Shown here piece after piece: positions 43,320 through 62,963 of a stretch of 64,000 nucleotides of DNA (within the stretch, counting starts at the first letter, position 1; each line of letters starts with the position of its first letter). Origin of the DNA: Pseudomonas flavescens (GTDB lineage Bacteria; Pseudomonadota; Gammaproteobacteria; Pseudomonadales; Pseudomonadaceae); assembly GCF_013408425.1 (NCBI RefSeq), contig NZ_JACBYV010000001.1, positions 4,712,001 to 4,776,000 of the forward strand. Direction: 5' to 3'. Under the pieces are notes generated by a model. The model did no database searches. It saw only the letters and a program-made list of their open reading frames with translations, and had not been told where the DNA came from. The position numbers were made by a program, and so were the translations under genes.

Positions 43320-44363
43320 TCAGCGGAAGGCTGGCACCACGTGCTGGATGAACAGCTCCAGGGACTTTTTCTTCTCGGCGTGGGGCAGGCTGTTGTCAGC
43401 CCAGAAGCTGAATTCGTCGACGCCCAGCTCCTGGTAGTGACGAATGCGCGCGATGATTTCCTCGGGCGTACCGATCATGGTGTTCTTGCGGATGTTCTCC
43501 AGCTCGAACTCCGGGCGCTCCTTGAATTTCTCTTCGGGGCTCGGCTCCAGCAGGCCGTCGACCGGGGTGATCTTGTTGCCGAACCAGGCATCGAAGGTGC
43601 GGTAGAAGCGCGAGATCGCAGCGGCACCGACCTTCCAGCCCTCGGGGTCGTCTGCCAGGTGTACGTGGGTGTGGCGCAACACCATCAGCTGTGGGCGTGG
43701 CACGTCCGGGTTGTTGGCCAGGGCGGCATTGAACTTGTTGTTCAGGTCGACCACTTCCTCGTCGCCCTTCATCAATGGCGTGACCATCACGTTGCAGCCA
43801 TTGGCGACTGCGAAATTGTGCGAGTCCGGATCACGTGCGGCGATCCACACCGGCGGAAGTGGTTGCTGCAGCGGCTTGGGCGACGAGGTGCTGGTAGGGA
43901 ATTTCCAGATTTCGCCGTCGTGGGCGTAGTCACCTTTCCACAGTGCCTTGACCACCGGCACCATCTCGCGCAGGTACCTGCCGCCATCACTGGCGGGCAT
44001 GCCACCGGCCATGCGATCGAATTCGTACTGATAGGCACCGCGGGCCAGACCGACTTCCATGCGGCCGTTGCTGATCACGTCGAGCAGGGCGCATTCGCCT
44101 GCTACGCGGATCGGGTTCCAGAACGGCGCGATGATGGTGCCGGCACCCAGACGGATAGTGCTGGTACGGGCAGCCAGGTAGGCCAGAATCGGCATCGGGC
44201 TCGGCGAAATGGTGTATTCCATGGCGTGATGCTCGCCAACCCACACGGTGCTGAAACCACCAGCTTCGGCCAGCAGGGTCAGCTCGGTCAGTTGCTCGAA
44301 GAGCTCGCGGTGGCCGACTTCCTGGTCGTAGCGTTCCATGTGGACGAACAAAGAGAATTTCAT
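43320..44363 (-). CDS. LLM-class flavin-dependent monooxygenase (bacterial luciferase family)
   Basis: A 347-residue luciferase-fold TIM-barrel enzyme. Family landmarks: AGGFSTVWVGEHHAMEYTISPSPMPILAYLAARTSTIRLGAGTIIAPFWNPIRVAGECALLDVISNGRMEVGLARGAYQYEFDRM near the start and GTPEEIIARIRHYQELGVDEF near the end. Such enzymes use FMNH2 supplied by a separate reductase, and a stand-alone flavin reductase is present at 59542. GAGGAAAG precedes the ATG. The promoter carries a perfect ATGGTATACCAT palindrome (44451-44462) shared with other operons of the block. Ring-opening oxygenation of an N-heterocycle is my working hypothesis; alkane, EDTA-type or limonene-type substrates are alternatives. Confidence 0.87.
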   Translation of the reverse strand: MKFSLFVHMERYDQEVGHRELFEQLTELTLLAEAGGFSTVWVGEHHAMEYTISPSPMPILAYLAARTSTIRLGAGTIIAPFWNPIRVAGECALLDVISNGRMEVGLARGAYQYEFDRMAGGMPASDGGRYLREMVPVVKALWKGDYAHDGEIWKFPTSTSSPKPLQQPLPPVWIAARDPDSHNFAVANGCNVMVTPLMKGDEEVVDLNNKFNAALANNPDVPRPQLMVLRHTHVHLADDPEGWKVGAAAISRFYRTFDAWFGNKITPVDGLLEPSPEEKFKERPEFELENIRKNTMIGTPEEIIARIRHYQELGVDEFSFWADNSLPHAEKKKSLELFIQHVVPAFR

Positions 44364-44450
44364 GTCGCTTTCCTCGATTTTTATAAAGCCCGGTGCGTTT
44401 GAGGCGCTTTCGGGGCTGGCCGCCGTGCAGGATCACGAGGCTTATGGTTC

Positions 44451-44462
44451 ATGGTATACCAT
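44451..44462. promoter_or_regulatory. GntR/FCD-type operator, site 1 (monooxygenase promoter)
   Basis: Perfect 12-base palindrome ATGGTATACCAT followed by AATATAA, 88 bases upstream of the monooxygenase ATG. Related copies are at 49922, 51138 and 62997. Confidence 0.75.
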
Positions 44463-44512
44463 AATATAAAATACTTTGGCGAGGGGCAGGCGACCAGTGT
44501 TATCGAAAAGCG

Positions 44513-45523
44513 TCAGTGGTTGGCGGCTTGCCAGGCGCTCCAGCGTTGCGCGATGCGCTCGCCGTTGAGGCTCCAGTATTTGAAATCCAGCGTGATCTGC
44601 CCGGTTTTGTGGGCACCGGGCTGGTTCTCCGCCAGCTTGGGGTCCACCAATGCCGAGGCGCCGAGATTGACCGGCGCATAACCGGTCAGCGAGGAAAAGT
44701 CGGCCTGGGGTTTCGGGCTGGTGGCATGGGCGATGAAGGTGCGCGCTGCCGCGACATTGCGCGAACCCCGGGGTATCACCAGAAAGTCACCGGCCACCAG
44801 ATTCTGCTGCCAGCTCATGCCCACCGGGGCGCCCTGATCGTGTAGCGCATTGACCCGGCCGTTCCAGAACATGCCCAGGCTGGCGGTCCCGGAGGCGAGC
44901 AACTGCTGTGATTCGTCACCACTGCCCCACCAGGCGATATCGCCCTTGATGCTGTCGAGCTTCCTGAAGGCGCGATCCAGATCCAGCGGGTACAGCTTGT
45001 CGGCGGCGACCCCGTCGGCGAGCAGGGCTATCTCCAGCACACCTGGGCTCGGCCACTTGTAGAGCGCGCGTTTGCCCGGAAAGGTACTCGTGTCGAACAG
45101 TGCCGCCCAGCTCTGCGGCGCCTCGCGCAGGGCCTGGGTGTTGTAGCCGAGGATGAAGGAAAAATAGAACGAGCCGGCGCCGTAGATGGTGACGAAGCGC
45201 GGGTCGATGGTGCGCTTGGCGATCTGCTTGAAATCCAGAGGTTCGAGCAGCCCTTCCCGGCCGGCCCGCAGGGCGAAATCCGCCTCCACATCGACCACGT
45301 CCCAGGTCACCTGGCCACTCTCCACCATGGCCTTGAAAGCGGCATAGTCGGTGGGCCCGGCCTGCTCGACACGGATGCCGGTCTGCTGGGTGAAGGGTTC
45401 GCTCCAGGCGCGGGTCTGCGCTGCTTGGGTGGTGCCACCCCAACTGACGAAGGTGATGCTCTGCTCGGCATGAGCGGTCGACAACAGCTGCAACCCCAGC
45501 AGCATGGCCAGCACTGTACGCAT
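44513..45523 (-). CDS. ABC transporter substrate-binding protein (PotD/PotF family), paralogue 1
   Basis: A 336-residue periplasmic binding protein. ATG 45523 has GGGAGGGA upstream and starts a signal peptide (MRTVLAMLLGLQLLSTAHA). The mature part opens ITFVSWGGTTQAAQTRAW, the polyamine-binding-protein family start, and includes WDVVDVEADFALRAGREGLLEPLDF and YKWPSPGVLEIALLADGVAADKLYPLDLDRAF. It is a clear paralogue of the protein encoded at 48731, with long stretches nearly the same. It lies downstream of the transporter ATPase gene, separated by a REP-like palindrome. The ligand is unknown; the pathway substrate or a breakdown product is likely. Confidence 0.87.
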   Translation of the reverse strand: MRTVLAMLLGLQLLSTAHAEQSITFVSWGGTTQAAQTRAWSEPFTQQTGIRVEQAGPTDYAAFKAMVESGQVTWDVVDVEADFALRAGREGLLEPLDFKQIAKRTIDPRFVTIYGAGSFYFSFILGYNTQALREAPQSWAALFDTSTFPGKRALYKWPSPGVLEIALLADGVAADKLYPLDLDRAFRKLDSIKGDIAWWGSGDESQQLLASGTASLGMFWNGRVNALHDQGAPVGMSWQQNLVAGDFLVIPRGSRNVAAARTFIAHATSPKPQADFSSLTGYAPVNLGASALVDPKLAENQPGAHKTGQITLDFKYWSLNGERIAQRWSAWQAANH

Positions 45524-45743
45524 GGAAATCCCTCCCGAACGATAAAGACGCCCTGGCTGCCGACCCGGCGAACCTGCCGTGGCCACGCGCCGTACTGGCG
45601 TATTGCAAAATGCGCTCCAGAATGGCGGAGGCGCTGCAGCGGGCGGCGGCAGTGCTATCCGCCCGTTACGCTGGTATTGCGTGGGAAAAGCGGTACCACT
45701 TGCCTGGGCGGGTGTAACGGTTGAGAGGCTTTCAGCGATCCAG

Positions 45744-45786
45744 TGTGGGAGCGGGCATGGACTAGGCGTCCCCGCCCGCTCCCACA
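45744..45786. repeat. REP-like palindrome between transporter genes
   Basis: TGTGGGAGCGGGC (from 45744) and GCCCGCTCCCACA (to 45786) form a 13-base inverted repeat around a 17-base loop. It is a common intergenic palindrome of Pseudomonas. The surrounding 316-base gap (45524-45839) holds nothing else that I can identify. It may also act as a transcript-end hairpin. Confidence 0.8.
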
Positions 45787-45839
45787 GGTTTTGGCGTTGA
45801 CTATGCCGACTGCTTTACCAAGACATATCGCACAACCAC

Positions 45840-46988
45840 TCAGTGCGCTCCGGCGCCCTTGGTCAGGTCGCTCTCGTTCCAGCTGTCGTACAGGCAGGCA
45901 TCGCTGGCGGCCCAGCGCACACGCGCCTGGGCGCCAGGCTGCAGGGGTTGCAGGCCGCTGCCCATGGCCTTGAGGGTCAGGTGGCAGCCGCCGGGTGTGA
46001 CCACGTGGCAGGTCAGGCTCTCGCCAAGGAACACCACTTCGGCGACCTGCACTGGGATCTCGTTCCAGCCCGCTGGCAGGGGCGTCTGCGCAGCGACTTG
46101 TTGCGGCAGCACCTGGGCTTTTTCCGGGCGCAGCATCAGCAGTACGTCCTGATCGTTCTGCAGATTGGCGGTCGGGGTGATCGACAGGCTCTGCTGCTCG
46201 AACTGCACGGCGGCCTGGCCACTGACCTTCGTCCGCAGGAAGTTGGAGTTGCCGAGGAAGGAGGCGACGAAGGCGTTTGGCGGGTTCTGGTAAAGGTCAT
46301 AACCGCTGCCCAGACCGACGATCTTGCCGTGGCTGAAGATGGCGATACGCTGTGACAGGCGCATGGCTTCCTCCTGATCGTGGGTCACGTAGACGATGGT
46401 GATGCCCAGGCGCCGATGCAGGTGACGCAACTCGTCCTGCAGGTCTTCACGCAGCTTCTTGTCCAGCGCGCCGAGGGGTTCGTCCATCAGCAGGATGCGC
46501 GGTTCGTAGACCAGCGCGCGGGCAATCGCCACGCGCTGTTGCTGGCCGCCGGAAAGTTGCGCCGGACGGCGGTGCGCGAACTCGCCGAGCTGCACCAGCT
46601 TGAGCATGGCCTCGACCTGGCGCTGCTGCTCGGCGGCACTCAGTTTGCGGATCGCCAGGGGAAAGGCGATGTTCTGGCGCACGTCGAGGTGCGGAAACAG
46701 CGAGTAGCGCTGGAACACCATGCCGATATCGCGCTTGTGCGGCGGCACGTTGACCAGGGATTTGCCCTCGACCAGGATTTCCCCGGAGCTGGGGGTTTCG
46801 AAGCCGGCCAGCATCGACAGCGTGGTGCTCTTGCCCGAGCCGCTGGAGCCGAGAAAGGTGAGGAATTCGCCCTCCTGGATCTCCAGGGAAATGTTATCCA
46901 CAGCGGTGAAGTCGCCGTAATGCTTGTTCAGGTTGCGCAGGCTGACCAGCGTTTGTGGTGCCCGGTTTTCTTGGATGACAGCACTCAT
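45840..46988 (-). CDS. ABC transporter ATP-binding protein (PotA-type)
   Basis: A 382-residue ATPase. Walker A is GSSGSGKSTTL, the Q-loop follows in FQRYSLFPHL, the signature is LSGGQQQRVAIARAL and Walker B RILLMDEPLGALD, with the H-loop in VTHDQEEA. A C-terminal TOBE-type domain (about residues 285-380) marks the polyamine/iron/sulfate (CUT-like, PotA) group. GAGGAG precedes ATG 46988. Gene order from the promoter is binding protein - permease - permease - ATPase, so all four form one importer. Confidence 0.93.
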   Translation of the reverse strand: MSAVIQENRAPQTLVSLRNLNKHYGDFTAVDNISLEIQEGEFLTFLGSSGSGKSTTLSMLAGFETPSSGEILVEGKSLVNVPPHKRDIGMVFQRYSLFPHLDVRQNIAFPLAIRKLSAAEQQRQVEAMLKLVQLGEFAHRRPAQLSGGQQQRVAIARALVYEPRILLMDEPLGALDKKLREDLQDELRHLHRRLGITIVYVTHDQEEAMRLSQRIAIFSHGKIVGLGSGYDLYQNPPNAFVASFLGNSNFLRTKVSGQAAVQFEQQSLSITPTANLQNDQDVLLMLRPEKAQVLPQQVAAQTPLPAGWNEIPVQVAEVVFLGESLTCHVVTPGGCHLTLKAMGSGLQPLQPGAQARVRWAASDACLYDSWNESDLTKGAGAH

Positions 46989-47005
46989 GAAATTCTCCTC
47001 GGCAC

Positions 47006-47815
47006 TCAGGCTTTGACGTCGGTGCGCCGGCGCACGATGGCGGCGATGACCATGACCAGCAGGGAAAGACCGATCAGCAGCGTCGAGGCGACGGCGATCA
47101 CGGGGGTGAGATCCTGGCGCAGCGTCGTCCACATCTTCACCGGCAGCGTCTGCAGGCCGGGGCTGGCCATCATCACGCTGAGCACCACTTCGTCCCAGGA
47201 AACCAGGAAGGCGAACAGGCCGCCGGCCACCAGGCCCGGACGGATCGCCGGGAAGGTCACCTTGACGATGGCCTGCAGGCGCGTGGCGCCGCAGATCACC
47301 GCGGCATCCTCGATGGACTGATCGAACAGCTTCAGCGAGTTGATGATCGAGATGATGGTAAACGGCAGCGCGACGATCACGTGGCTGACCACGAAGGCGA
47401 ACAGCGTGCCGGTGTAGCCGAGCTTGAGGAACAAGGCGTAGACCGCCACGGCGATGATCACCAGTGGCACGATCATCGGCAGGGTGAACAGCGCGAACAG
47501 CAGCTCACGGCCAGGGAAGCGGCCACGTACCAGGGCGAAGGCGCTGGGCATGCCGATGGCGACCGCGCAGATGGTCGTCAGCAAGGCCACCTTGAGGCTG
47601 ACCAGCGCCGAGTCCATCCACTGGGCGTTGGAGAAGAACTGCCCGTACCACTTGAACGTCCAGCCCGGTGGCGGAAACACCAGCCACTGCGAGGAGCCGA
47701 ACGACAGCAGCACGATGAACAGAATCGGTAGCAGCAGGAACACGGCGATCAGCGCGGTGACCGTATTGAGGCCGTAGCGCAGGCCGCGGCCCATGGCATT
47801 GGGTGACAGCAGCAT
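47006..47815 (-). CDS. ABC transporter permease (PotC-type)
   Basis: A 269-residue inner-membrane permease with six predicted helices and the EAA-type coupling loop (DAAVICGATRLQAIVKVTFPAIRPGL). It is the second of two permeases of the Pot-type importer, six bases from its neighbour. No substrate information can be read from it. Confidence 0.9.
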   Translation of the reverse strand: MLLSPNAMGRGLRYGLNTVTALIAVFLLLPILFIVLLSFGSSQWLVFPPPGWTFKWYGQFFSNAQWMDSALVSLKVALLTTICAVAIGMPSAFALVRGRFPGRELLFALFTLPMIVPLVIIAVAVYALFLKLGYTGTLFAFVVSHVIVALPFTIISIINSLKLFDQSIEDAAVICGATRLQAIVKVTFPAIRPGLVAGGLFAFLVSWDEVVLSVMMASPGLQTLPVKMWTTLRQDLTPVIAVASTLLIGLSLLVMVIAAIVRRRTDVKA

Positions 47816-47820
47816 GGCGT

Positions 47821-48729
47821 TTACCTCGCAGTGCTGGAAGCCACCGGCGATTCCGGTTGCAGCTTCAAGTAGACGTAGAACAGCACCAGCGTGATGAGGA
47901 TCAGCAAGGCTGCCGCCGCGCTGGCAATGCCCCAGTTAAGGAACGATTGCACCTGCTGGATGATGAATTCGGGCAGCATCATGTTCTGCGCGCCGCCAAG
48001 CAGCGCCGGGGTCACGTAGTAACCCAGGGACATCACGAAGACCATCAGACCACCCGAGAAAATGCCCGGCCTGCACAACGGCAGGAATACCTTGAAGAAG
48101 TTGCGCCATGGGCTGGCGCCGCAGATCGAGCCGGCCTGCAAGACCATCGGGTCGATGGCGCTCATGGTCGCCTGCAGTGGCAGCACGATGAACGGAATCA
48201 TGATGTAGCTCATGCCGATCACCACACCGGTCAGGTTGTGCACCATCTCCAGGGGCTGATCGATGATGCCCATGGCCATCAGCGTCTTGTTCACCACGCC
48301 CGAGGACTGCAACAGCACCAGCCAGGAGTAGGTGCGTGCCAGCAGGCTGGTCCACATCGACAGCAGGACGATATTCAGCAGCCAGCGGCCCCAGCCGCGC
48401 GGCATCAGGGTGATCGCCCAGGCCAGGGGGAACCCCAGCAGCAGGCTGATCACGGTCACCAGCCCGGCTACCGCGAAGGTGTTGAACAGCACCTTGGAGT
48501 AGGCCGAATTGGCGAACAGTTGTGCGTAGTTGCCCAGCCCTGGCTCCGGCTCCAGCACGCCGCGCAGCAGCAGGCCGATCAGCGGCGTCAGGAAGAACAA
48601 CCCGAGGAACAGCAGGGCCGGCAGCAGGTACGGGGCGCCGCGCCAGCGCGCCGCCCGTTCCGCGTTACCGTCGGCGCTGTCGCGCCGACGGTTTGCTGCA
48701 CCGACCTCAGGGGTACGGAGCGCGGTCAT
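47821..48729 (-). CDS. ABC transporter permease (PotB-type)
   Basis: A 302-residue permease with six predicted helices, an N-terminal cytoplasmic extension rich in Arg/Ala, and the EAA loop SICGASPWRNFFKVFLPLCRPGIF. Its ATG follows the binding-protein stop as TGA-A-ATG, so the two are translationally coupled. Part of the importer encoded at 45840-49756. Confidence 0.9.
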   Translation of the reverse strand: MTALRTPEVGAANRRRDSADGNAERAARWRGAPYLLPALLFLGLFFLTPLIGLLLRGVLEPEPGLGNYAQLFANSAYSKVLFNTFAVAGLVTVISLLLGFPLAWAITLMPRGWGRWLLNIVLLSMWTSLLARTYSWLVLLQSSGVVNKTLMAMGIIDQPLEMVHNLTGVVIGMSYIMIPFIVLPLQATMSAIDPMVLQAGSICGASPWRNFFKVFLPLCRPGIFSGGLMVFVMSLGYYVTPALLGGAQNMMLPEFIIQQVQSFLNWGIASAAAALLILITLVLFYVYLKLQPESPVASSTAR

Positions 48730-48730
48730 T

Positions 48731-49756
48731 TCACTTCACCAGCCATTCGTTCCAGCGGGTGGCGATGTCCGCCCCGTTCTTCGCCCAGTAGGCGTAGTCC
48801 AGGGTGATCTGATCGCTCACGTGCGCGGTGGGCAGGTTCGGTGCCAGCACCGAGTCCAGGCGCTGCACGCTGTCGACGTTGACCGGCGCGTAGGCGGTGA
48901 GGTTGGCGAAGTCGGCCTGGCCCTTTGCGCCGCTGGCGTGAGCCAGGAACTTCATGGCCGCGTCCTTGTTCTTGGCACCCTTGGGGATGACCAGGAAGTC
49001 GGCCATGACCAGGTTCTGCTTCCAGCTTGCCGCTACCGGTGCGCCTTCTTCCTGCAAGGCATAGATACGGCCGTTCCAGAACTGACCGAGGCTCGCCTCG
49101 CCGGAAGCCAGGAGTTGCTGCGACTGTGCGCCGCCGCCCCACCAGACGATGTCTTTCTTGATGGTGTCGAGTTTCTTGAAGGCGCGATCCAGATCCAGCG
49201 GGTACAGCTTGTCGGCGGCAACACCGTCAGCCAGCAGGGCCAGTTCGATCACGCCCGGGCTCGGCCACTTGTACAGGGCGCGTTTGCCGGGGTAGGTCGC
49301 GGTGTCGAACAGGGCGCTCCAGTCTTCCGGCTTCTTGTTGCCGAGGCTGCCCTCGTTGTAGCCGAGCACGAAGGAAAAGAAGAACGAACCGACACCGTGA
49401 TCGGAGACGAAGCGCGGGTCGATCTTCTCACGCTCGATGACGCCGAAGTCCAGCGGCTCCAGCAGACCTTCGGCGGCCGCGCGCAGGGCGAAGTCGGCTT
49501 CCACGTCGACCACGTCCCACTGCACGTTGCCGCTCTCGACCATGGCCTTGAGCTTGCCGTAGTCGGTCGGTCCGTCCTGCACCACCGTGACGCCGCTGCT
49601 CTTGCTGAACGGATCCGCCCAGGCGGCCTTCTGCGCGTCCTGGGTGCTACCGCCCCAGCTCACGAAGTTGACGGTTTCGGCAGAGGCCGTGGTGGCGACT
49701 GCTGCACTCAGAATGCTCGCGGCGAGCACCGAGGTCACACCTTTGATAAACACCAT
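48731..49756 (-). CDS. ABC transporter substrate-binding protein (PotD/PotF family), paralogue 2
   Basis: A 341-residue binding protein, first gene of the importer operon. ATG 49756 has GAGGG upstream and a signal peptide (MVFIKGVTSVLAASILSAAVATTASA). The mature start VNFVSWGGSTQDAQKAAW and the later WDVVDVEADFALRAAAEGLLEPLDF match paralogue 1. Upstream, the operator variant ATGGTATTCCAA (49922) connects it to the GntR/FCD regulon. The ligand is unknown. Confidence 0.9.
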   Translation of the reverse strand: MVFIKGVTSVLAASILSAAVATTASAETVNFVSWGGSTQDAQKAAWADPFSKSSGVTVVQDGPTDYGKLKAMVESGNVQWDVVDVEADFALRAAAEGLLEPLDFGVIEREKIDPRFVSDHGVGSFFFSFVLGYNEGSLGNKKPEDWSALFDTATYPGKRALYKWPSPGVIELALLADGVAADKLYPLDLDRAFKKLDTIKKDIVWWGGGAQSQQLLASGEASLGQFWNGRIYALQEEGAPVAASWKQNLVMADFLVIPKGAKNKDAAMKFLAHASGAKGQADFANLTAYAPVNVDSVQRLDSVLAPNLPTAHVSDQITLDYAYWAKNGADIATRWNEWLVK

Positions 49757-49921: not shown

Positions 49922-49933
49922 ATGGTATTCCAA
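49922..49933. promoter_or_regulatory. GntR/FCD-type operator, site 2 (transporter promoter)
   Basis: ATGGTATTCCAA differs from the core TGGTATACCA at one base. On the minus strand it reads into ACCATAATATGA, the same downstream extension seen at the monooxygenase site. It lies 166 bases before the binding-protein ATG. Confidence 0.6.
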
Positions 49934-49999: not shown

Positions 50000-51106
50000 T
50001 CACTCGAAGGGCACGGTCTCGACAACCTCCAGTTCATAGCCGGCAAGACCCGCGTACTTGAGCGGCGGGCCCAGGTGACGCAGCTTGCCGACGCCGAGGT
50101 CCTGCAGAATCTGTGCCCCGGTGCCGACCTCCGAATAGACCCGTGTCTGCCCGCGATTGAACGGGCGCTGCGGCTGGGTCAGTTGCGGGACGCGCTCGAG
50201 CAGCGCCTGGGACGACTCGTGGTTGGCCAGCACCACGACGACGCCCTTGCCGTCGGCGGCGATGCGTTCCAGAGCGGCCCATAGCGTCCAACTGCGCGGG
50301 CCGGTGTATTCGGCGCCTACCAGATCGCGCAGCGGATCGATGGCATGCACGCGCGCCAGGGTCGGCTCGTCATGACGGATATCGCCCATCACCATGGCCA
50401 TGTGCACGCCCCCGGCGATACGGTCTTCATAGGTGATCAGGCGGAACTCGCCGTGCACGGTGGGCAGCTCGCGTTCGCCGATGCGGGTAATGGTGTGCTC
50501 GGTGCTCAGGCGGTGCTGGATGAGGTCGGCGATGGTGCCGATCCTGATGCCGTGGGAGTGGGCGAAGGCCTCCAGCTGCGGGCGGCGCGCCATGCTGCCA
50601 TCCTCGTTCATGACTTCGACGATCACCGCCGCCGGGGTCAGGCCGGCCAGCCTGGCCAGATCGCAGCCCGCCTCGGTGTGCCCGGCGCGGGTCAGTACGC
50701 CGCCTTCCTTGGCTCTCAGCGGGAAGATGTGGCCGGGCTGCACCAGGTCGGCGGCCTTCGCGCCAGGCGCAACGGCAGTCAGCACCGTGTGCGCACGGTC
50801 GGCGGCGGAAATGCCCGTACTGATGCCGCTGGCGGCTTCGATGGAAACGGTGAAGGCGGTGGAAAACACGCTACCGTTACTCGGTACCATCTGCTCCAGA
50901 CCCAGACGCTGGCAGTGCTCGTCGGTCAGGGTCAGGCAGATCAGCCCGCGGGCTTCACGGGCCATGAAATTGATCGCCTGAGGCGTGCAGAACTGCGCAG
51001 CGAGCAGCAGGTCGCCCTCGTTCTCGCGGTCTTCGTCATCGACCAGCAGCACCATCTTGCCCTGGCGGAAGTCATCGATGAGTTCACGGATGGGATGGAA
51101 GGGCAT
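50000..51106 (-). CDS. ribB: 3,4-dihydroxy-2-butanone 4-phosphate synthase with inactive GTP-cyclohydrolase-II-like domain
   Basis: A 368-residue RibBA-like protein. The N-terminal DHBP synthase domain (about residues 1-205) is intact: [11 protein letters not shown] (metal and acid residues), [15 protein letters not shown] and [15 protein letters not shown]. The C-terminal half has the GTP cyclohydrolase II fold but lacks the three zinc cysteines, as in many pseudomonad RibB proteins, so only ribulose-5-phosphate conversion is expected. It makes a riboflavin precursor. Placement beside a shared operator and a flavin-dependent oxygenase suggests an extra copy dedicated to flavin supply; a housekeeping rib operon is expected elsewhere. 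Confidence 0.88.
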
Positions 51107-51137: not shown

Positions 51138-51149
51138 ATGGTATACCGT
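51138..51149. promoter_or_regulatory. GntR/FCD-type operator, site 3 (ribB / DUF1330 divergent promoter)
   Basis: ATGGTATACCGT within AATATGGTATACCGTAATAC, between ribB (minus) and the DUF1330 gene (plus). One regulator bound here could control both. Confidence 0.75.
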
Positions 51150-51179: not shown

Positions 51180-51473
51180 ATGAAGGGTTACTGGATCGCG
51201 CACGTGGACGTCACCGACCCCGAGCGCTATGTGGAATACACCAAACGCGCCCCGGCGGCCTTCGCCGCCTTCGGTGGCAGATTTCTGGCCCGCGGCGGCC
51301 GCTCCGAAGCCCAGGAAGGCCGGACCACACCACAGCGTAGCGTGGTGATCGAATTCCCATCGTACGATCAGGCCGTCGCCTGCTACCGCTCCGAGGCCTA
51401 CCAGGAAGCCAGCAGCTACCGGGCCGGCGCCGCGCGCTCGGAAGTGATCATCGTCGAGGGCATGGCGCCCTGA
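51180..51473 (+). CDS. DUF1330 family protein
   Basis: A 97-residue ferredoxin-like alpha+beta protein with the DUF1330 start KGYWIAHVDVTDPERYVEYTKRAPAAFAAFGGRFLARGG and the later VVIEFPSYDQAVACYRSEAYQ. AAAGGAGG precedes the ATG. The family is frequent in catabolic gene clusters but has no agreed biochemical function. It is the only plus-strand gene of the block and is divergent from ribB across an operator. Confidence 0.87.
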   Translation: MKGYWIAHVDVTDPERYVEYTKRAPAAFAAFGGRFLARGGRSEAQEGRTTPQRSVVIEFPSYDQAVACYRSEAYQEASSYRAGAARSEVIIVEGMAP

Positions 51474-53986: not shown

Positions 53987-54056
53987 GGCATGACTCCTGC
54001 GATAGTTGCTGTTGTTGGCAGGGCTGAGTGACCGCACGGGCGGCCACCCATGGGGT

Positions 54057-55913: not shown

Positions 55914-56477
55914 TCAGCGGATGAAGTGCACCTTGCCGGTGTCGTCGCTGCCCATGTAGATCCCGTAGATGCCCGCTTCGCGTTCGGCGATGTAGCGTTC
56001 GAGAATCTGGCGGATGGCCGGGTAGTAGATCTGCTCCCAGGGGATGTCCTCGGGGGCGAAGAAGCGGCGGGCCAGGGTTTCACTGCCGAAGTACCCGGTA
56101 TCGTGCAGCAGTCGGGCGCGGAAGATCAGGTACACCTCGCTGATCGAGGGCACGCTGAACACCGAGTAGGGGCAGAGGATTTCGGCGACCACGCCGGCCT
56201 CCTCGCGCACTTCACGCAGCGCCGCCTCTTCGGTGGTTTCGCCGTTTTCCATGAACCCTGCGGGCAGTGTCCAGGTGCCGACGCGCGGCGCGATGGCGCG
56301 TTGGCAGAGTAGATAGCGGCCGTCTTGCTCGATGATGCAGCCGGTGATTATCTTCGGGTTTTCGTAATGGATATGCCCGCAGCCGGCGCATACCAGCCGT
56401 GAATGGTCGTCTCCGGCCGGGCGGCGCCGTTCCAGCGTCGCGCCGCCGCATTGCTGACAGAAGCGCGGGCTGGGCAT
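55914..56477 (-). CDS. NUDIX hydrolase with N-terminal zinc ribbon
   Basis: A 187-residue hydrolase. The N-terminus carries a zinc ribbon (FCQQCGG ... CAGCGHIHYENP). The Nudix box is complete (GFMENGETTEEAALREVREEAGV, matching GX5EX7REUXEEXGU). It hydrolyses a nucleoside-diphosphate-linked compound. It is encoded five bases after the GntR/FCD regulator gene, so it belongs to that transcript. The real start is ATG 56477; the long upstream extension of the frame lies within the regulator gene. Its role in the catabolic block is unclear. Confidence 0.88.
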   Translation of the reverse strand: MPSPRFCQQCGGATLERRRPAGDDHSRLVCAGCGHIHYENPKIITGCIIEQDGRYLLCQRAIAPRVGTWTLPAGFMENGETTEEAALREVREEAGVVAEILCPYSVFSVPSISEVYLIFRARLLHDTGYFGSETLARRFFAPEDIPWEQIYYPAIRQILERYIAEREAGIYGIYMGSDDTGKVHFIR

Positions 56478-56482: not shown

Positions 56483-57232
56483 TCAGCTCCCGATACGCGG
56501 GTCTTTCAGACCGATGGGGGCGACGATGTCCCGCGCCTTGGCACCTTCCTGTTTGGCTTCCAGGTACTCCAGGGCGACCTTGGCCGCGGCACGTACGTGA
56601 TCGACCGACGCCTGGTGAGCGGCCAGCGGGTCGCCACTCTTGATCGCCTCGACCATCCGCTCCATTTCCTGATTGCTGGTGCTGCGTCGGTTGGTCTGCG
56701 ATACCGAGGTGGCCCGCAGGTAGCTGATGCGCGCCTGCAACTGGCGCAGCTGGGTGGCGGCGATGTCGTTGCCCGAGCCTTCCATCAGCACGTTGTAGAA
56801 CTCCTGAACCGACTCCAGGACGTCCGGCAGCTCGCCCTCTTCGAGGGTCTGGCGGTTGTTCTCCAGCGCGCGCTCCAGGGCGCGGATGTCCTTGGCGCGG
56901 GCGCGCAGGGTGAACAGCTGGACGATCATGCCTTCCAGCACGCAGCGCAACTCGTAGAGATCGCAGGCGTCTTCCAGGGTGATGATCGCCACGCGTGGGC
57001 CCTTGGCGTCGGCGAATTCTACCAGGCCTTCCGACTCGAGATGGCGCAGCGCCTCGCGCACCGAGGTGCGGCTGACCCCCAACCGATCGCACAGATCGCG
57101 CTCCACCAGGCGGTCGCCGGGTAGCAGCTGGAAGTTCATGATGGCGCTGCGCAGCTTGTCCAGAACGATCTCCCGCAGGGTCACGGGGTTGCGGTTGACC
57201 TTGAAGCTATCGTCGATCGGCTGGCGTTTCAT
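56483..57232 (-). CDS. GntR/FCD-family transcriptional regulator
   Basis: A 249-residue regulator with an N-terminal winged HTH (about residues 12-80, REIVLDKLRSAIMNFQLLPGDRLVERDLCDRLGVSRTSVREALRHLESEGLVE) and an all-helical FCD effector domain (about 95-225) with the metal-site type residues in DLYELRCVLEG and DPLAAHQASVDHVRAA. FCD regulators typically bind TNGTATACNA-type palindromes. Four such sites occur in this block, so this is the prime candidate for the shared regulator. The effector is probably a pathway carboxylate. Confidence 0.88.
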   Translation of the reverse strand: MKRQPIDDSFKVNRNPVTLREIVLDKLRSAIMNFQLLPGDRLVERDLCDRLGVSRTSVREALRHLESEGLVEFADAKGPRVAIITLEDACDLYELRCVLEGMIVQLFTLRARAKDIRALERALENNRQTLEEGELPDVLESVQEFYNVLMEGSGNDIAATQLRQLQARISYLRATSVSQTNRRSTSNQEMERMVEAIKSGDPLAAHQASVDHVRAAAKVALEYLEAKQEGAKARDIVAPIGLKDPRIGS

Positions 57233-57269: not shown

Positions 57270-57668
57270 CTATGCCTCGGCCTGCTGGGCTTCGGCATCC
57301 GCTTCGGCGAACGCTTCACGGGCGATGCGGAAGCTGTCGACTGCGGCAGGCACACCGCAGTAAATGCCGACCTGCAGCAGAATCTCGCGGATCTGCTCGC
57401 GGCTGAGGCCGTTGCGCAGGGCGCCGCGAATGTGCAACTTCAGCTCGTGCGGGCGGTTGAGCGCGGAAATCATGGCCAAGTTTATCATGCTGCGTTCCTG
57501 CATCGATAAGCCTTCACGACCCCACACATGCCCCCAGCAGTATTCGGTGACCAGCTCCTGCAGCGGGCGGTTGAAGTCGTCGGCATTCTCCACCGAGCGC
57601 TTCACGTAATCCTCGCCCAGCACCTGGGTGCGGATCTGCAGGCCCTTCTCGTACTTGTCGTTGCTCAT
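57270..57668 (-). CDS. Carboxymuconolactone decarboxylase (CMD) family protein
   Basis: A 132-residue helical protein of the CMD/AhpD superfamily (QELVTEYCWGHVWGREGLSMQERSMINLAMISALNRPHELKLHIRGALRNGLSREQIREILLQVGIYCGVPAAVDSF). No AhpD-type CxxC pair is present, so the gamma-carboxymuconolactone-decarboxylase side of the family is more likely than a peroxidase role. GGGAG precedes the ATG. It lies between the REPIN and the GntR/FCD gene. Its reaction in this block is unknown. Confidence 0.87.
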   Translation of the reverse strand: MSNDKYEKGLQIRTQVLGEDYVKRSVENADDFNRPLQELVTEYCWGHVWGREGLSMQERSMINLAMISALNRPHELKLHIRGALRNGLSREQIREILLQVGIYCGVPAAVDSFRIAREAFAEADAEAQQAEA

Positions 57669-57844: not shown

Positions 57845-59296
57845 TCAAAGCCCACCCATCAAGGTGTATTTGATTTCCAGATAATCGTCGATGCCATAGT
57901 GCGAGCCTTCGCGGCCCAGGCCCGACGCCTTGATGCCGCCGAAAGGCGCCACTTCGGTGGAAATCAGCCCTTCGTTGATGCCGACCATGCCGTACTCCAA
58001 GCCCTCGCTCATGCGCCAGGCGCGGCCGAGGTCGCGGGTGTAGCAATAAGCGGCCAGGCCGAATTCGGTATCGTTGGCCATGTGCAGCGCTTCGGCTTCG
58101 TCGCGGAAACGGAACACCGCAGCCAGTGGGCCGAAGGTTTCCTCGCGTGCGACCTTCATGCCGGTGGTGACCTCGGCCAGCACCGTGGGCTGATAGAAAC
58201 CGTGGCCCAGTGCGTGACGTTCGCCGCCGCAGATCAGCCTGGCGCCTTTGCCCAGGGCATCGGCGACGTGATCAGCGACTTTATCCACAGCCCGCTCATT
58301 GATCAGCGGGCCCTGTTGCGCGCCTTCGGCAAAACCATCGGCGACCCTCAGTTCGCCTACGCGCTCGGCCAGGCGGGCGACGAAGGCGTCATGGATGCCG
58401 TCCTGGACCAGAAAGCGGTTCACGCACACGCAGGTCTGCCCGGCATTGCGGAATTTGGCGATCAGCGCGCCGTCCACCGCACGCTCCAGATCGGCATCGT
58501 CGAAGACGATGAACGGCGCATTGCCGCCCAGTTCCAGAGAGACCTTCTTCAAGGTGCTGGCGCACTGCTGCATCAACAGCTTGCCGATCGGCGTGGAGCC
58601 GGTGAACGACAGCTTGCGCACCGTGGCGCTGGCGCAGAGCTCGTTGCCGATGGCCACCGCGTCGCCGGTAATCACGTTGAAGATGCCGGGGGGAATGCCC
58701 GCTTCCTCGGCGAGCACCGCCAGCGCCAGTGCGGAAAACGGCGTTTCCGGCGCCGGCTTGACGATGCAGGGGCAGCCAGCGGCCAGCGCCGGGCCGACCT
58801 TGCGGGTGATCATCGCCGCCGGGAAGTTCCACGGCGTGATGGCTGCGACCACGCCAATCGGCTCCTTGGTCACGACGATGCGTGCATCGGGCTTGTGGCT
58901 GGGAATGGTGTCGCCATAGATGCGCTTGGCTTCCTCGGCGAACCACTCGATGAAGCTGGCCGCGTAGAGGATTTCGCCCTTGGCTTCGGCCAGTGGCTTG
59001 CCCTGTTCCAGGGTCAGAATCTCGGCCAGTGCGTCAGCGTTTTCCAGCATCAGCGCATGCCAGCGCTTGAGCACCGCACTGCGTTCCTTGGCGGTGCGCG
59101 CACGCCAGGCTGGCCAGGCGGCATTGGCGGCGGCGATGGCTCGCAGAGCTTCGGCGCTGCCCATGTCGGGTACCCGGCCGATCTCTTCGCCATTGGCGGG
59201 GTTGAAGATGGCTTGGGTGCCGCCTTCATCGGCGGCCAACCACTGGCCATCGAGGTAGGCGTACTGACGAAACAGACGCGACGCTTCAGGTGTCAT
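57845..59296 (-). CDS. gabD: NAD(P)-dependent succinate-semialdehyde dehydrogenase-like aldehyde dehydrogenase
   Basis: A 483-residue aldehyde dehydrogenase closest to GabD. Seen: PWNFPAAMITRKVGPALAAGC, FTGSTPIGKLL (cofactor), LELGGNAPFIVFDDADL (catalytic Glu), NAGQTCVCVNRFLVQ (catalytic Cys followed by a second Cys two residues later) and the C-terminal INEGLISTEVAPFGGIKASGLGREG typical of the GabD branch. It would oxidise succinic semialdehyde to succinate and feed the TCA cycle. A role as the last step of the block is inferred. Glutarate-semialdehyde dehydrogenase is the main alternative. Confidence 0.86.
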   Translation of the reverse strand: MTPEASRLFRQYAYLDGQWLAADEGGTQAIFNPANGEEIGRVPDMGSAEALRAIAAANAAWPAWRARTAKERSAVLKRWHALMLENADALAEILTLEQGKPLAEAKGEILYAASFIEWFAEEAKRIYGDTIPSHKPDARIVVTKEPIGVVAAITPWNFPAAMITRKVGPALAAGCPCIVKPAPETPFSALALAVLAEEAGIPPGIFNVITGDAVAIGNELCASATVRKLSFTGSTPIGKLLMQQCASTLKKVSLELGGNAPFIVFDDADLERAVDGALIAKFRNAGQTCVCVNRFLVQDGIHDAFVARLAERVGELRVADGFAEGAQQGPLINERAVDKVADHVADALGKGARLICGGERHALGHGFYQPTVLAEVTTGMKVAREETFGPLAAVFRFRDEAEALHMANDTEFGLAAYCYTRDLGRAWRMSEGLEYGMVGINEGLISTEVAPFGGIKASGLGREGSHYGIDDYLEIKYTLMGGL

Positions 59297-59506: not shown

Positions 59507-59541
59507 AACGGTGATTTAGGTTCTCGTCGAAGTCACGTCGA

Positions 59542-60027
59542 TCAAGCCAACGCCGGCAGGGCGCCGAGCTTGCCGCGGTGATAGATCATCGGCACCGGAG
59601 CGACCTCAGGCAGAATCAGGTTCTTCACTGCGCCTACCATGATGGCGTGATCACCGCCGTCGTACTCGCGCCACAGCTCGCACTCGATGATCGCGGCGGC
59701 GTTCTTCAGCAGCGGGTTGCCTTGCTCGCTGAGGGTCCATTCGATGCCTGCGGCCTTGTCCTTGCCCTTGCCGGCGAAGGCATAGGCTTCGGCCTGTTGC
59801 TCGGCAGAGAGCAGGTGAATCGCGAAGCGCTTGCTGTCGCGCAGCACCGGGTAGGAATCGGAGCCGTAGTTGGGGCAGAACAGCACCAGCGCAGGGTCGA
59901 TCGACAGCGCGCTGAAGGCGCTGGCGGTGATGCCGACGATGCCGCCATCCGGGCCCAGCGTGGTAACGATGGTCACCCCCGAGGGGAAGGCGGCCATGAC
60001 GGATTTGTACAGTCCGGGTTCGATCAT
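59542..60027 (-). CDS. Flavin reductase family protein (FMN reductase partner)
   Basis: A 161-residue flavin-reductase domain protein (FPSGVTIVTTLGPDGGIVGITASAFSALSIDPALVLFCPNYGS near the start and HRGKLGALPAL at the end). These proteins reduce FMN or FAD with NAD(P)H and supply it to two-component oxygenases. ATG 60027 is chosen because GAGGAAAG lies upstream; the longer open frame overlaps the ALDH gene. The natural partner is the luciferase-family monooxygenase at 43320, which has no reductase beside it. Confidence 0.87.
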   Translation of the reverse strand: MIEPGLYKSVMAAFPSGVTIVTTLGPDGGIVGITASAFSALSIDPALVLFCPNYGSDSYPVLRDSKRFAIHLLSAEQQAEAYAFAGKGKDKAAGIEWTLSEQGNPLLKNAAAIIECELWREYDGGDHAIMVGAVKNLILPEVAPVPMIYHRGKLGALPALA

Positions 60028-60047
60028 TTGTACTTTCCTCGATGCGC

Positions 60048-61529
60048 TCAGCGCATCACGAACGGGTCGGGCATCGGCGCTTGCGACAGGTTGATCCACA
60101 CCGTTTTCAGTTCGGTGTAGGCGAGTACCGAGTCGATGCCGCTTTCACGGCCGTAGCCGCTGTTCTTGAAACCACCGATCGGCGCCATGGCCGATACGGC
60201 ACGGTAGGTGTTGACCCATATGATGCCTGATCGCACGCCCTTGGCCAGTCGATGGGCGCGGCCTAGGTCGCGGGTCCAGATGCCGGCGGCAAGGCCGAAC
60301 TGCGAGTCGTTGGCCATGGCCAGCGCTTCGGCCTCGTCCTTGAAGCGGATCACCGAGGCCACCGGGCCGAAGACTTCTTCCTGCATGATGGTCATCGAGT
60401 GGTCGTCGCACTCGAACAGGGTCGGCTCGTAATACCAGCCTTCGCCGTCGACCTGAGGGCGTTTGCCACCCAGGCGCAACGTCGCGCCTTCGGCGACGGC
60501 AGTGGCGACCAGACGCTCGACCACGGCCAGTTGCTGAGCGGTGGCCATGGGGCCCATCTCGCTGGCGTCGTCCTGCGGGTTGCCGATGCGGATGCGCTTG
60601 GCGCGTTCGACCAGGCGTTCGACGAATTCGTCGTAGATGCTGTCCTGCACCAGCAGCCGCGACCCGGCCACGCAACTCTGCCCGGAGGCGGCGTAGATGC
60701 CGGCGACCACGCCGTTCACGGCGCTGTCGAGATCGGCGTCGGCGAAGATGATGTTCGGCGACTTGCCGCCCAGTTCCAGTGACAGCTTGGCGAAGTTCTC
60801 CGCACTGGCACGCACCACATGGCGTGCGGTGGCGGCGCCGCCGGTGAAGGCGATCTTGCGTACCAGCGGGTGACTGGTCAGCGCCGCTCCGGTGGTCGGC
60901 CCGTAGCCGGTGACCACGTTGACCACGCCGGCCGGGAAACCCGCTTCGAGTGCCAGGCGAGCCAGTTCGAGGATGGTCGCCGAGGCATGCTCCGAGGGCT
61001 TGAGCACGATGGTGTTGCCCGCTGCCAGGGCTGGCGCGAGCTTGATGGCAGTCAGGTACAGCGGGCTGTTCCAGGGAATGATCCCGGCTACCACGCCAAT
61101 CGGCTCGTGGGTGGTGTAGGCGAACATGTCTGGCTTGTCGAGGGGCAGGGTGCCGCCTTCGAGCTTGTCGGCCAGGCCCGCGGTGTAGTGGAAGAACTCC
61201 GGCAGGTAGCCGACCTGGCCACGGGTTTCGCGGATCAGCTTGCCGTTGTCGCGGCTTTCCAGCTGGGCCAGGGCTTCCTTGTTCTCGGCGATCAGGTCGC
61301 CGAGACGACGCAGCAGTTTGCCCCGTGCAGTGGCGCTCAGGTTGCGCCAGGCCGGGTTGTCGAACGCTGCCTGAGCGGCCTGCACGGCGCGCTCGACGTC
61401 TTCGCCGGCGGCATCCGGGAGCACCGCCCAGGCCTCAGCGCGCGCCGGGTCGAGGCTCTCGAAGGTCTTGCCGGACTGCGCGTCGACCCACTGGCCGTCA
61501 ATGCACATCTGATAGCGTGCGAGTGTCAT
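60048..61529 (-). CDS. Aldehyde dehydrogenase
   Basis: A 493-residue aldehyde dehydrogenase with IIPWNSPLYLTAIKLAPALAAGN, FTGGAATARHVV, LELGGKSPNIIFADADL (catalytic Glu), SGQSCVAGSRLLVQ (catalytic Cys) and GGFKNSGYGRESG. It lies in the operon AA_synth - hydrolase - ALDH - flavin reductase and overlaps the hydrolase gene by four bases (ATGA). It is a different subfamily from the GabD-like enzyme at 57845. It probably oxidises the aldehyde released by the oxygenase; the exact substrate is unknown. Confidence 0.9.
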   Translation of the reverse strand: MTLARYQMCIDGQWVDAQSGKTFESLDPARAEAWAVLPDAAGEDVERAVQAAQAAFDNPAWRNLSATARGKLLRRLGDLIAENKEALAQLESRDNGKLIRETRGQVGYLPEFFHYTAGLADKLEGGTLPLDKPDMFAYTTHEPIGVVAGIIPWNSPLYLTAIKLAPALAAGNTIVLKPSEHASATILELARLALEAGFPAGVVNVVTGYGPTTGAALTSHPLVRKIAFTGGAATARHVVRASAENFAKLSLELGGKSPNIIFADADLDSAVNGVVAGIYAASGQSCVAGSRLLVQDSIYDEFVERLVERAKRIRIGNPQDDASEMGPMATAQQLAVVERLVATAVAEGATLRLGGKRPQVDGEGWYYEPTLFECDDHSMTIMQEEVFGPVASVIRFKDEAEALAMANDSQFGLAAGIWTRDLGRAHRLAKGVRSGIIWVNTYRAVSAMAPIGGFKNSGYGRESGIDSVLAYTELKTVWINLSQAPMPDPFVMR

Positions 61530-62359
61530 GCGACGATCCCCTTTGCGGTGTTCTGCAGCTGGCTGGCCTCTCTGAGGAATTCCAGCAGCATCTGGTTGAC
61601 CAGGCGCGGCGATTCCACGGGCATCATATGCCGTTGTTCGGCCAGTACCACGGCCCTGGCACCTGGAATGCAGCGCGCCAGCTGTTCGGCCATCTGCGGT
61701 GTCGAGCCCGGATCGAGCTCGCCGGTGGCGATCAGGGTCGGCACGCGGATCTCGGCCAGATCGTCGGCCCGATACATGTCCTGGGTGGCGAACAGCGTAT
61801 AGGTGGTCAGGTAGCCCTGGGCATCGTTGCCGGCCAGGGTCTGGCGGATGGCGGTGATCTGCGCCGGGTTGGCCGCCTGGTATTCACGGCTGAACCAGCG
61901 TGACAGCGCCGCTTCGGCATTGGCGTCAGGGCCATGTTCGGCGGCCTGGGCAGTGCGCTCGATGACGCCTGCACGTTGCTCGGGGCTGCGGTTGAACACG
62001 CTGTTGAGTACCACCAGGGCGGCGATGCGCTGCGGGTAGTGCAGCGCGAAGGCGCGAGCCACCAGGCCGCCCATGGAGAAACCGATCACCGTGGCTTGCT
62101 GCTGGCCGAGGTGATCGAGCAGTTCACGCAACTGGTCGGCGTAACCGGCCAGGTCGGTGTCCGCTGCCGGTCGTGGGCTGTCGCCGTGGCCGAGCATGTC
62201 ATAGACGATGACCTGGAAATGCTGGGCCAGGCCAACCACCTGGCCGCCCCACATGTCCTTGGTCAGGCCGACACCGTGGATCAACACCACGGGCTGGCCC
62301 TGGCCGATCACCCGGTAACTGGTGCCGGCGGGGGTGCGTTCAGCGAGATGCCGAATCAT
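61526..62359 (-). CDS. Alpha/beta hydrolase
   Basis: A 277-residue alpha/beta-hydrolase. The oxyanion region is LIHGVGLTKDMW, the nucleophile elbow GFSMGG (Ser95), the acid is in IATGELDPGSTP and the His in LAEQRHMMPVE. ATG 62359 has GGGAG upstream. The family covers esterases, C-C hydrolases, enol-lactonases and amidases. In an operon with an aldehyde dehydrogenase and flavin reductase, hydrolysis of an N-formyl, ester or lactone intermediate is plausible. The substrate is not predictable. Confidence 0.88.
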   Translation of the reverse strand: MIRHLAERTPAGTSYRVIGQGQPVVLIHGVGLTKDMWGGQVVGLAQHFQVIVYDMLGHGDSPRPAADTDLAGYADQLRELLDHLGQQQATVIGFSMGGLVARAFALHYPQRIAALVVLNSVFNRSPEQRAGVIERTAQAAEHGPDANAEAALSRWFSREYQAANPAQITAIRQTLAGNDAQGYLTTYTLFATQDMYRADDLAEIRVPTLIATGELDPGSTPQMAEQLARCIPGARAVVLAEQRHMMPVESPRLVNQMLLEFLREASQLQNTAKGIVA

Positions 62360-62372
62360 GGCCTGCTCCCGA

Positions 62373-62963
62373 TCACTGCGCCTTCTCGGCGGCCAGTTCT
62401 TCCAGATCGATGTAACGGTTACCGATACGCGGATGCAGGCGGCCACCGTTGGCGGCACCCAGTACCACGACGATTTCGTCGGCACGCGGTGCATCTTCGA
62501 TCTGCATTTCCAGGGTGATGTAGTGCGAGCGCAGGCCTTCGTCGTCCTTGTGCATCATCGGAATCTGGATCGAAGTGCCCGGGCCACCGCGCTTGTTGGT
62601 GAAGCTCAGGTAGCTCTTGGCGTTCACCGCTTCGCGGTAGTGATTGCCGAAGCGCAGGGTGTGGATAACGGCCGAGGCGTGCTCGATTTCACCATCGGCA
62701 CCGACCACGGCAGCCTTGCCATAGGCTTCGATCTTGTCGGCACCGCCGATGGCGGCGGTCAGGCGCGCGACCATCAGTTCACCCAGCTCGGAGCAGTTGG
62801 CCTTGATCACGGGTTTGAGGTCTTCGACGAAGCCGTTGCCAACCCAGGGGTTCTTGATCACGACGGCCAGTCCGACCATGGTGACCGGCTTGTCGGTGGC
62901 CTTGCCGCCTTCGATCAGGGTTTCTTCTACATAGCTGACGATCTTGCGAATCTCGAAACTCAT
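62373..62963 (-). CDS. AA_synth (PF06684/DUF1185) family protein
   Basis: A 196-residue protein of the so-called amino-acid-synthesis family (SFEIRKIVSYVEETLIEGGKATDKPVTMVGLAVVIKNPWVG ... GKAAVVGADGEIEHASAVIHTLRFGNHYREAVNAKSYLSFTNKRGGPG). AAAGGAG precedes ATG 62963. The family occurs in catabolic clusters for amino-acid-like or N-heterocyclic compounds, and its true reaction is not established. It is the first gene of the hydrolase/ALDH/flavin-reductase operon, below operator site 4. Confidence 0.85.
   Translation of the reverse strand: MSFEIRKIVSYVEETLIEGGKATDKPVTMVGLAVVIKNPWVGNGFVEDLKPVIKANCSELGELMVARLTAAIGGADKIEAYGKAAVVGADGEIEHASAVIHTLRFGNHYREAVNAKSYLSFTNKRGGPGTSIQIPMMHKDDEGLRSHYITLEMQIEDAPRADEIVVVLGAANGGRLHPRIGNRYIDLEELAAEKAQ

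Follow-up and report, generated by a model that had tools for sequence, protein, structure and literature searches.

The gene cluster at 41.6-63.0 kb of a 64,000-nucleotide stretch of Pseudomonas flavescens DNA (G000:C1:4712001-4776000, from a 5.95 Mb genome; hereafter the window) is interpreted as a catabolic regulon of the trigonelline type, directed at an N-methylpyridinium carboxylate, and we give this assignment of substrate class and route a probability of roughly 0.7. The cluster is most likely a common variant of the known trigonelline pathway, with an oxygenase whose clade is sister to that of TgnA, and the substrate is presumably trigonelline itself, a widespread plant osmolyte. A preliminary description of the same DNA had proposed luciferase-type degradation of a pyridine-like N-heterocycle on the model of the Arthrobacter pyridine pathway. 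The analysis covers gene content, homology, the clade of the oxygenase, an operator shared by the units of the cluster and linkage to genes of methylamine utilization.

Gene content and likeness to trigonelline clusters

All of the enzyme families named in the preliminary description are present as intact open reading frames (ORFs), as judged from model matches and BLAST. On the minus strand the order is AA_synth, alpha/beta hydrolase, aldehyde dehydrogenase (ALDH), flavin reductase, succinate-semialdehyde dehydrogenase (SSADH), CMD, a GntR/FCD regulator and a NUDIX protein; a block of GntR/UTRA, ADP-ribosylglycohydrolase, NCS1a and PfkB comes next, followed by DUF1330 (plus strand), RibBA, a polyamine-type ABC importer with two binding proteins (44513-49756, minus strand), the luciferase-like monooxygenase (LLM) and the permease NCS1b (Table 1). 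The window thereby contains the complete core of six that characterizes tgn clusters (LLM, flavin reductase, ALDH, alpha/beta hydrolase, SSADH and AA_synth), together with a GntR regulator, as in Acinetobacter baylyi ADP1 and on pSymA of Sinorhizobium meliloti.

The pSymA cluster, which we take to be the trigonelline trc region, comprises genes for GntR, AA_synth, hydrolase, flavin reductase, LLM, ALDH, NIPSNAP, an ABC importer homologous to that of the window, and SSADH. Identities between the two are 61% for SSADH, 60% for AA_synth, 57% for ALDH, 51% for LLM, 44% for GntR and 34% for the flavin reductase, and the binding proteins and permeases agree at 58-59%. Clusters of the Acinetobacter type (G496, G437) share CMD, DUF1330 and a homologous NCS1 permease with the window, and at loci L179 and L180 the identities are 79% for CMD, 70-71% for SSADH, 58-59% for AA_synth, 56% for ALDH and 54% for the permease. 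The L179 oxygenase is 92-94% identical to P0121-P0123, which carry the NCBI name flavin-dependent trigonelline monooxygenase oxygenase component. According to the title of Goldmann et al. 1991, as cited in PMC6297676, trigonelline genes of S. meliloti lie on pSym. A passage in PMC8269262 has bacterial trigonelline degradation start with ring opening by TgnA/TgnB and mentions better growth of Ruegeria pomeroyi on trigonelline than on homarine.

The distribution of the families was compared between 17 loci of the window clade (six of them picked for linkage to mgsC) and 80 TgnA-clade loci, with truncated flanks in some cases. The 80 are the best-matching named loci, whose LLMs are 64-93% identical to a Psychrobacter LLM; nine were placed in the tree and all fell into the TgnA clade. 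AA_synth, previously regarded as an unexplained addition, emerges as part of the tgn core, for it occurs in 79/80 TgnA-clade loci alongside hydrolase (80/80), ALDH (80/80) and flavin reductase (74/80), with SSADH within the flanks of 14/80. The remaining families show a different pattern: RibBA is found in 13/17 window-clade but 0/80 TgnA-clade loci, CMD in 12/17 compared to 16/80, DUF1330 in 13/17 compared to 18/80, NUDIX in 14/17 compared to 36/80, and the ABC ATPase in 12/17 compared to 30/80; the cluster NCS1 permease is present in 13/17 window-clade loci. CMD, DUF1330 and NUDIX had also been listed as unexplained additions. The distribution of CMD leaves the idea of an obligatory decarboxylase unsupported, and a NUDIX domain fused to the S. 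meliloti flavin reductase, hinted at by a weak BLAST match, was unconfirmed by Pfam at E 0.001.

Related clusters exhibit further arrangements. The Mesorhizobium ciceri plasmid cluster (L019:6205-8004) encodes a 599-aa fusion of alpha/beta hydrolase and flavin reductase. In G599 (L184:16638-18584) Pfam identifies a dCache_1 methyl-accepting chemotaxis protein between flavin reductase and LLM, and 648-aa ORFs of the same size occupy that place in L020, L186 and L187 (G094, G650, G725); chemotaxis to the substrate is possible. An isochorismatase-family gene stands beside the LLM and a second NCS1-type permease in G717 (L177:6665-7378).

Operator, probable regulon and flavin supply

The element TGGTATACCA occurs four times in the window at no more than one mismatch, compared to 0.31 expected, a count reached in 0/100 shuffles, and each of the four stands in front of a unit of the cluster, in agreement with the earlier proposal of several operons under one operator. 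The two exact copies at this locus are the only ones in the genome, and since base composition alone would give an estimated ~2, it is the placement of TGGTATACCA, not its copy number, that carries weight. At least one exact copy was found in 17/23 stretches from relatives (the window, L017 and L018 excluded), often before AA_synth, before the LLM or at RibBA/DUF1330; exact copies were not found in the other 6/23, nor in the A. dokdonellae and S. meliloti loci. From this placement, TGGTATACCA is the predicted mark of one regulon that unites enzymes, importer and additional ribBA, and the GntR/FCD protein presumably acts at it.

RibBA appears to belong to the regulon, as suggested by the operator between ribBA and DUF1330 that recurs in relatives. 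The additional flavin-precursor synthesis noted in the preliminary description would be the role of this intact gene, and a second RibBA, 54% identical to the cluster copy, is encoded elsewhere in the genome. Co-regulation of a riboflavin-synthesis gene with a luciferase-family enzyme is familiar from the lux-rib operons of luminous bacteria; unlike there, the luciferase relative of the window would be catabolic.

The PfkB-NCS1a-ADP-ribosylglycohydrolase-GntR/UTRA block (51601-55783) is an unrelated neighbour outside the system, because the scan of the 64 kb at up to one mismatch gave no operator site within it and only 3/17 window-clade loci have it (window, G592, G734). Among the 13 loci whose stretch has both NUDIX and RibBA it likewise occurs in 3, and it was not found at the corresponding place in G750. 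The block resembles the yegTUVW set of E. coli. Of the uptake genes, the ABC importer and NCS1b are counted as part of the system and NCS1a is not, and a riboside or nucleoside substrate, at which PfkB, ADP-ribosylglycohydrolase and NCS1 had hinted, was dropped on the same grounds.

Linkage to methylated-amine genes and growth tests

Genes for methylamine, dimethylamine and trimethylamine metabolism occupy 14.3-41 kb of the window, outside the coordinates of the original proposal. By gene content, the N-methylglutamate pathway set (GmaS, mgsABC and mgd-type genes) is there together; the names mgsABC for 23441..27789 and mgd for 15235..22098 are our assumption. The ORF at 15235-15915, next to the soxA/soxB-family genes, has no model match. 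Between the methylamine and trimethylamine genes (28746-33416) lie two ammonium-transporter (Amt)-family genes and a PAS/MCP-signalling protein.

In the genus sample of 249 genomes, one per sampled species and with that of the window included, mgsC was found in 57 at a threshold of E 1e-120: 52 genomes have LLM and mgsC, 87 only LLM, 5 only mgsC and 105 neither. The LLM is thus present in 52/57 mgsC-bearing genomes compared to 87/192 mgsC-free ones (Fisher odds ratio 12.6, p 1e-10, uncorrected for kinship). Both genes are on the same contig in 40 of the 52, and in 32/40 they lie within 25 kb of each other (1.8-17.3 kb); proximity by chance (~50 kb of 6 Mb) would be expected for well under one of 40. 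The arrangement of the two differs among G674, G722, G690/G803, G632, G683, G325 (another genus) and G750. Six of the clusters read (G674, G722, G690, G803, G632, G683) were chosen as mgsC-linked, and among ten not chosen in this way 2/10 are linked (G325, G750). Overall, mgsC stands at 9/17 window-clade loci, the six picked for linkage included, compared to 2/80 TgnA-clade loci, namely a Sulfitobacter metagenome-assembled genome (L092) and Yoonia (L105), both with mgsABC in the flanks. The linkage argues for an N-methyl substrate from which methylamine would be released.

Published growth tests are consistent with trigonelline as substrate. Table 2 of PMC9412563 gives use of trigonelline by 97.9% of 48 P. 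viridiflava isolates, Table 2 of PMC10890144 gives 100% for kiwifruit strains of the P. syringae group (33 Psa, 2 Pfm and 18 other P. syringae; 53/53), and in Table 6 of PMC6283537 all eight P. syringae pathovar columns are positive and P. coronafaciens is negative. P. viridiflava encodes P0048, a member of the window clade with 84% identity to the window LLM; G656, with a 97% match to P0048, has this as its single LLM match and mgsC 3 kb away. The phenotype link to the window clade is suggestive, as far as these tables go, because the strains scored and those sequenced differ.

Oxygenase clades, proposed route and alternative substrates

Maximum-likelihood trees of 45 and 46 LLM proteins place the window oxygenase in a 17-member clade with support of 100/99 in both, together with proteins from Pseudomonas, actinobacteria, Gibbsiella and Nitrincola. 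The TgnA clade is separate (100/98 in the 45-protein tree, 93/97 in the 46-protein tree) and holds Acinetobacter, rhizobia, roseobacters, Psychrobacter, Xanthomonas, Paraburkholderia and others. Among the matches listed, the best species-named one is from Phytopseudomonas dryadis (93%), and the NCBI label for the window clade is mostly 'LLM class flavin-dependent oxidoreductase'; JGI labels the window-clade proteins P0056, P0067 and P0113 trigonelline monooxygenase, by annotation transfer only. The window clade is represented in 139/249 genus genomes (in G636 and G670 by a partial or split match). At E 1e-60, with up to 8 candidates scored in each genome, the 249 gave no TgnA-clade match. The literature search, mostly outside subscription journals, returned no paper on this Pseudomonas clade; the comparative section of the tgn paper may list Pseudomonas.

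Six of the 249 genus genomes have an LLM of a third clade (44% identical), four of them alongside the window clade. All six neighbourhoods (L169-L174 in G638, G816, G717, G792, G707, G634) were read and three of the six LLMs placed in the tree. The loci have their own AA_synth, flavin reductase, ALDH, hydrolase, CMD and ABC-type ATPase, with SSADH in 5/6, and may represent a further ring-opening system of the genus. Neighbourhoods and tree together ruled out that the second LLM of the four genomes is TgnA, which would have indicated two substrates. The 32 positions common to the window and TgnA clades and different in the third were left unused as evidence, the third clade being more divergent (long branch, three rows).

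For A. baylyi ADP1, Perchat and colleagues reportedly described in 2018 that a two-component flavin oxygenase cleaves the C5-C6 bond, that a dehydrogenase, a hydrolase and SSADH follow, and that the hydrolase step gives CO2, methylamine, formate and succinate semialdehyde. The corresponding route in the window, each reaction of which we infer, would begin with uptake of the zwitterion by the polyamine-type ABC importer, aided by the NCS1 permease. The flavin reductase would provide reduced flavin mononucleotide (FMN) to the LLM oxygenase for direct ring opening, with RibBA raising the flavin supply and NUDIX perhaps doing likewise for FMN. ALDH would convert the ring-opened product into an N-formyl enamide dicarboxylate, which the PcaD-like hydrolase would cleave to formate, methylamine and 2-formylsuccinate. 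The latter would yield succinate semialdehyde and CO2, either spontaneously or assisted by the PcaC-like CMD, whose role would be to speed the decarboxylation, and SSADH would complete the sequence to succinate. Methylamine would pass to the adjacent N-methylglutamate pathway (GmaS/mgsABC/mgd), and GntR/FCD at TGGTATACCA would control enzymes, importer and additional ribBA.

Several observations weigh against trigonelline as the substrate or against this route. The window LLM is outside the TgnA clade, in its sister clade, at ~50% identity (50% to P0121 and to Acinetobacter proteins with the NCBI name trigonelline monooxygenase). At 19 positions each of these two clades has a conserved residue of its own (e.g., M193/Q193, Y50/F50, F115/Y115), which leaves room for another substrate; H83/N83, also considered as defining the substrate, is variable inside the window clade. 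For the hydrolase, identity to its counterpart in the S. meliloti cluster is only 33%. CMD and SSADH are absent from some loci, and in G683, G690 and G803 AA_synth, ALDH and hydrolase do not lie within 40 kb around the LLM. As regards the linkage, 87/139 window-clade genomes are without mgsC, and of the 52 with both, 12 have the genes on different contigs, while in 8 the distance on a shared contig is 26 kb to 4.5 Mb. The phenotype-genotype link is at species level and across different strains, and no biochemical data for the window clade were found in the papers accessible to the search.

Clade, clade-specific positions and hydrolase together indicate that the substrate could differ. The same chemistry might thus act on another N-methylated heterocycle (e.g., N-methylnicotinamide, N-methylpyridinium, N-methylisonicotinate or homarine) with methylamine as product, in what would be a sister pathway to tgn, and linkage to methylamine genes would suit any such N-methyl compound. 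We consider this unlikely, since trigonelline-using species carry the window clade while the genus sample gave no TgnA-clade match, and since importer and downstream enzymes have close relatives in the S. meliloti and Acinetobacter-type clusters. No better odds are given to the window clade, which several actinobacterial genera also have, being a second betaine-ring pathway that has its own flavin supply, passes methylamine to the N-methylglutamate pathway and serves a substrate other than trigonelline.

It is somewhat less probable still that the linkage reflects a shared niche only, with LLM cluster and methylated-amine genes collected in a betaine/amine island and without a common intermediate, an explanation compatible with the other readings. 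The genes for trimethylamine, trimethylamine N-oxide and dimethylamine in the window island would make methylamine without the LLM, and the LLM-bearing genomes that have no mgsC fit this picture as well. The adjacency, however, repeats in different gene orders; in G674 and G722 the cluster has Amt-mgsCBA-GmaS as its neighbours, and the 40 kb read there gave no match to Tmm/Tdm. In addition, mgsABC lies beside two TgnA-clade loci.

Degradation of pyridine, unsubstituted or substituted, as in Arthrobacter sp. 68b is very improbable. The pyr genes of that strain are presumably those on plasmid p2MP, whose LLM we take to be the pyridine oxygenase PyrA. The enzyme classes agree (LLM, flavin reductase, SSADH-type dehydrogenases, a hydrolase), and the p2MP stretch of 25 kb, with two identical LLM copies, a flavin reductase and two annotated SSADH, also has riboflavin kinase, a DUF1330 gene and a RibBA-like stretch. 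Yet the p2MP LLM is only 26% identical to that of the window (29% to that of Arthrobacter dokdonellae) and falls outside every clade of the 46-protein tree, at the end of a very long branch; p2MP is annotated with an amidohydrolase, the enzyme type expected to act on the formamide intermediate of the pyr pathway, where the window has an alpha/beta hydrolase, and AA_synth and alpha/beta hydrolase gave no match in its 25 kb at E 1e-3. Linkage to methylamine genes argues further against unsubstituted pyridine, which has no N-methyl group. The comparison makes the analogy drawn in the preliminary description one of function, not of family: two-component luciferase-type opening of a pyridine-type ring, with succinate as end product, is retained as the probable mechanism, whereas the Arthrobacter pyridine pathway is not the nearest relative. 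The Rut pyrimidine pathway, similar in its LLM, flavin reductase and alpha/beta hydrolase families, was rejected, with the RutD and RutF models far below their cut-offs (93.9 compared to 238.5 bits and 67.3 compared to 254.75), a weak PDB match only for RutA, and no match to an isochorismatase in the cluster proteins scanned.

The cluster on plasmid pDCT5 of A. dokdonellae shares with the window an LLM of 77% identity, hydrolase, ALDH, flavin reductase, NUDIX and SSADH, and has two AA_synth and an NCS1 permease 29% identical to NCS1b. Unlike the window, it has riboflavin kinase in place of RibBA, a tautomerase and a flavin reductase fused to a SnoaL-like domain (L017:6490-7428); the sole ABC gene listed in its 25 kb is a carbohydrate-type permease at a distance of ~11 kb, and the list includes no methylamine genes. 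The RibBA-like stretch of p2MP (L225:15557-16103) is made up of two tblastn pieces with no gene listed for them and lies near the riboflavin kinase. Riboflavin genes thus recur beside LLM catabolic clusters.

Table 1. Features of the window with coordinates, strand and supporting matches.
Feature	Position	Strand	Basis or remark
N-methylglutamate-dehydrogenase-type genes, FolD, PurU	15235..22098	-	soxA 867, soxB 457 bits (both below cut-off); FolD, PurU above
GmaS-like type III glutamine synthetase and mgsABC-type genes	23441..27789	+	TIGR03105 666 > 470; GATase, GXGXG, Glu_synthase domains
Trimethylamine N-oxide demethylase, trimethylamine monooxygenase, dimethylamine monooxygenase subunits	33275..40719	-	NF053776 1157 > 1100; NF058570 832 > 675; NF041259 103 > 60; HODM_asu-like 258 bits
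NCS1 permease of the cluster (NCS1b)	41653..43047	-	PF02133; homologous to permease of Acinetobacter-type clusters
LLM oxygenase (TgnA-like)	43320..44363	-	PF00296 192 bits
Operator, exact	44452..44461	.	Upstream of LLM
ABC substrate-binding protein 2	44513..45523	-	62% to protein 1, 59% to S. meliloti binding protein
ABC ATPase	45840..46988	-	PF00005 + TOBE_2; 51% to S. meliloti cluster ORF; start judged by eye
Second ABC permease	47006..47815	-	59% to other S. meliloti permease; PotC/PotI models below cut-offs
ABC permease	47821..48729	-	59% to S. meliloti cluster permease
ABC substrate-binding protein 1	48731..49756	-	59% to S. meliloti cluster binding protein; start codon judged by eye
Operator, 1 mismatch	49923..49932	.	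Upstream of ABC operon
RibBA, additional riboflavin-precursor enzyme	50000..51106	-	NF009132 750 bits > 693
Operator, 1 mismatch	51139..51148	.	Between ribBA and DUF1330; site there in several relatives
DUF1330 protein	51180..51473	+	PF07045; divergent from ribBA across operator
Second NCS1 permease (NCS1a, in PfkB block)	52523..53986	-	NCS1 family
NUDIX hydrolase, presumed housekeeping of FMN/FAD (flavin adenine dinucleotide)	55914..56477	-	PF00293 + PF14803
GntR/FCD, probable cluster regulator	56483..57232	-	PF00392 + PF07729
CMD (PcaC-like), possible 2-formylsuccinate decarboxylase	57270..57668	-	TIGR02425 153.2 < cut-off 155.7
SSADH	57845..59296	-	TIGR01780 721 bits > cut-off 646
Flavin reductase partner (TgnB-like)	59542..60027	-	PF01613
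ALDH, putative oxidation of ring-opened aldehyde/hydroxybutyrolactone	60048..61529	-	57% to S. meliloti cluster ALDH
Alpha/beta hydrolase (PcaD-like), putative enamide hydrolase	61526..62359	-	PF00561; TIGR02427 174 bits < 256 cut-off
AA_synth	62373..62963	-	PF06684 240 bits
Operator, exact	62998..63007	.	Upstream of AA_synth operon

Elsewhere in the window, a 27-nt inverted repeat (93% complementary, 10-nt loop; 57729-57792) between CMD and SSADH is terminator- or REP-like, and Rfam models gave zero matches to 39-64 kb at gathering scores. A two-partner secretion (TPS) pair at 2670-12623 consists of a 2533-aa TPS/filamentous haemagglutinin protein, which ends in a colicin-DNase-like C-terminus, and a ShlB-type transporter.

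Lastly, the interpretation has importance in assigning a testable function to an LLM clade present in more than half of the species sampled from the genus, and in explaining AA_synth, importer and riboflavin genes as parts of one regulon. It predicts that an N-methylpyridinium ring is converted into succinate and N-methylglutamate within a single locus. Several plant-associated Pseudomonas have been scored for trigonelline use in the tables of published tests (PMC9412563, PMC10890144, PMC6283537). A catabolic enzyme of the luciferase family may, as in the lux-rib operons, travel with a riboflavin gene of its own.

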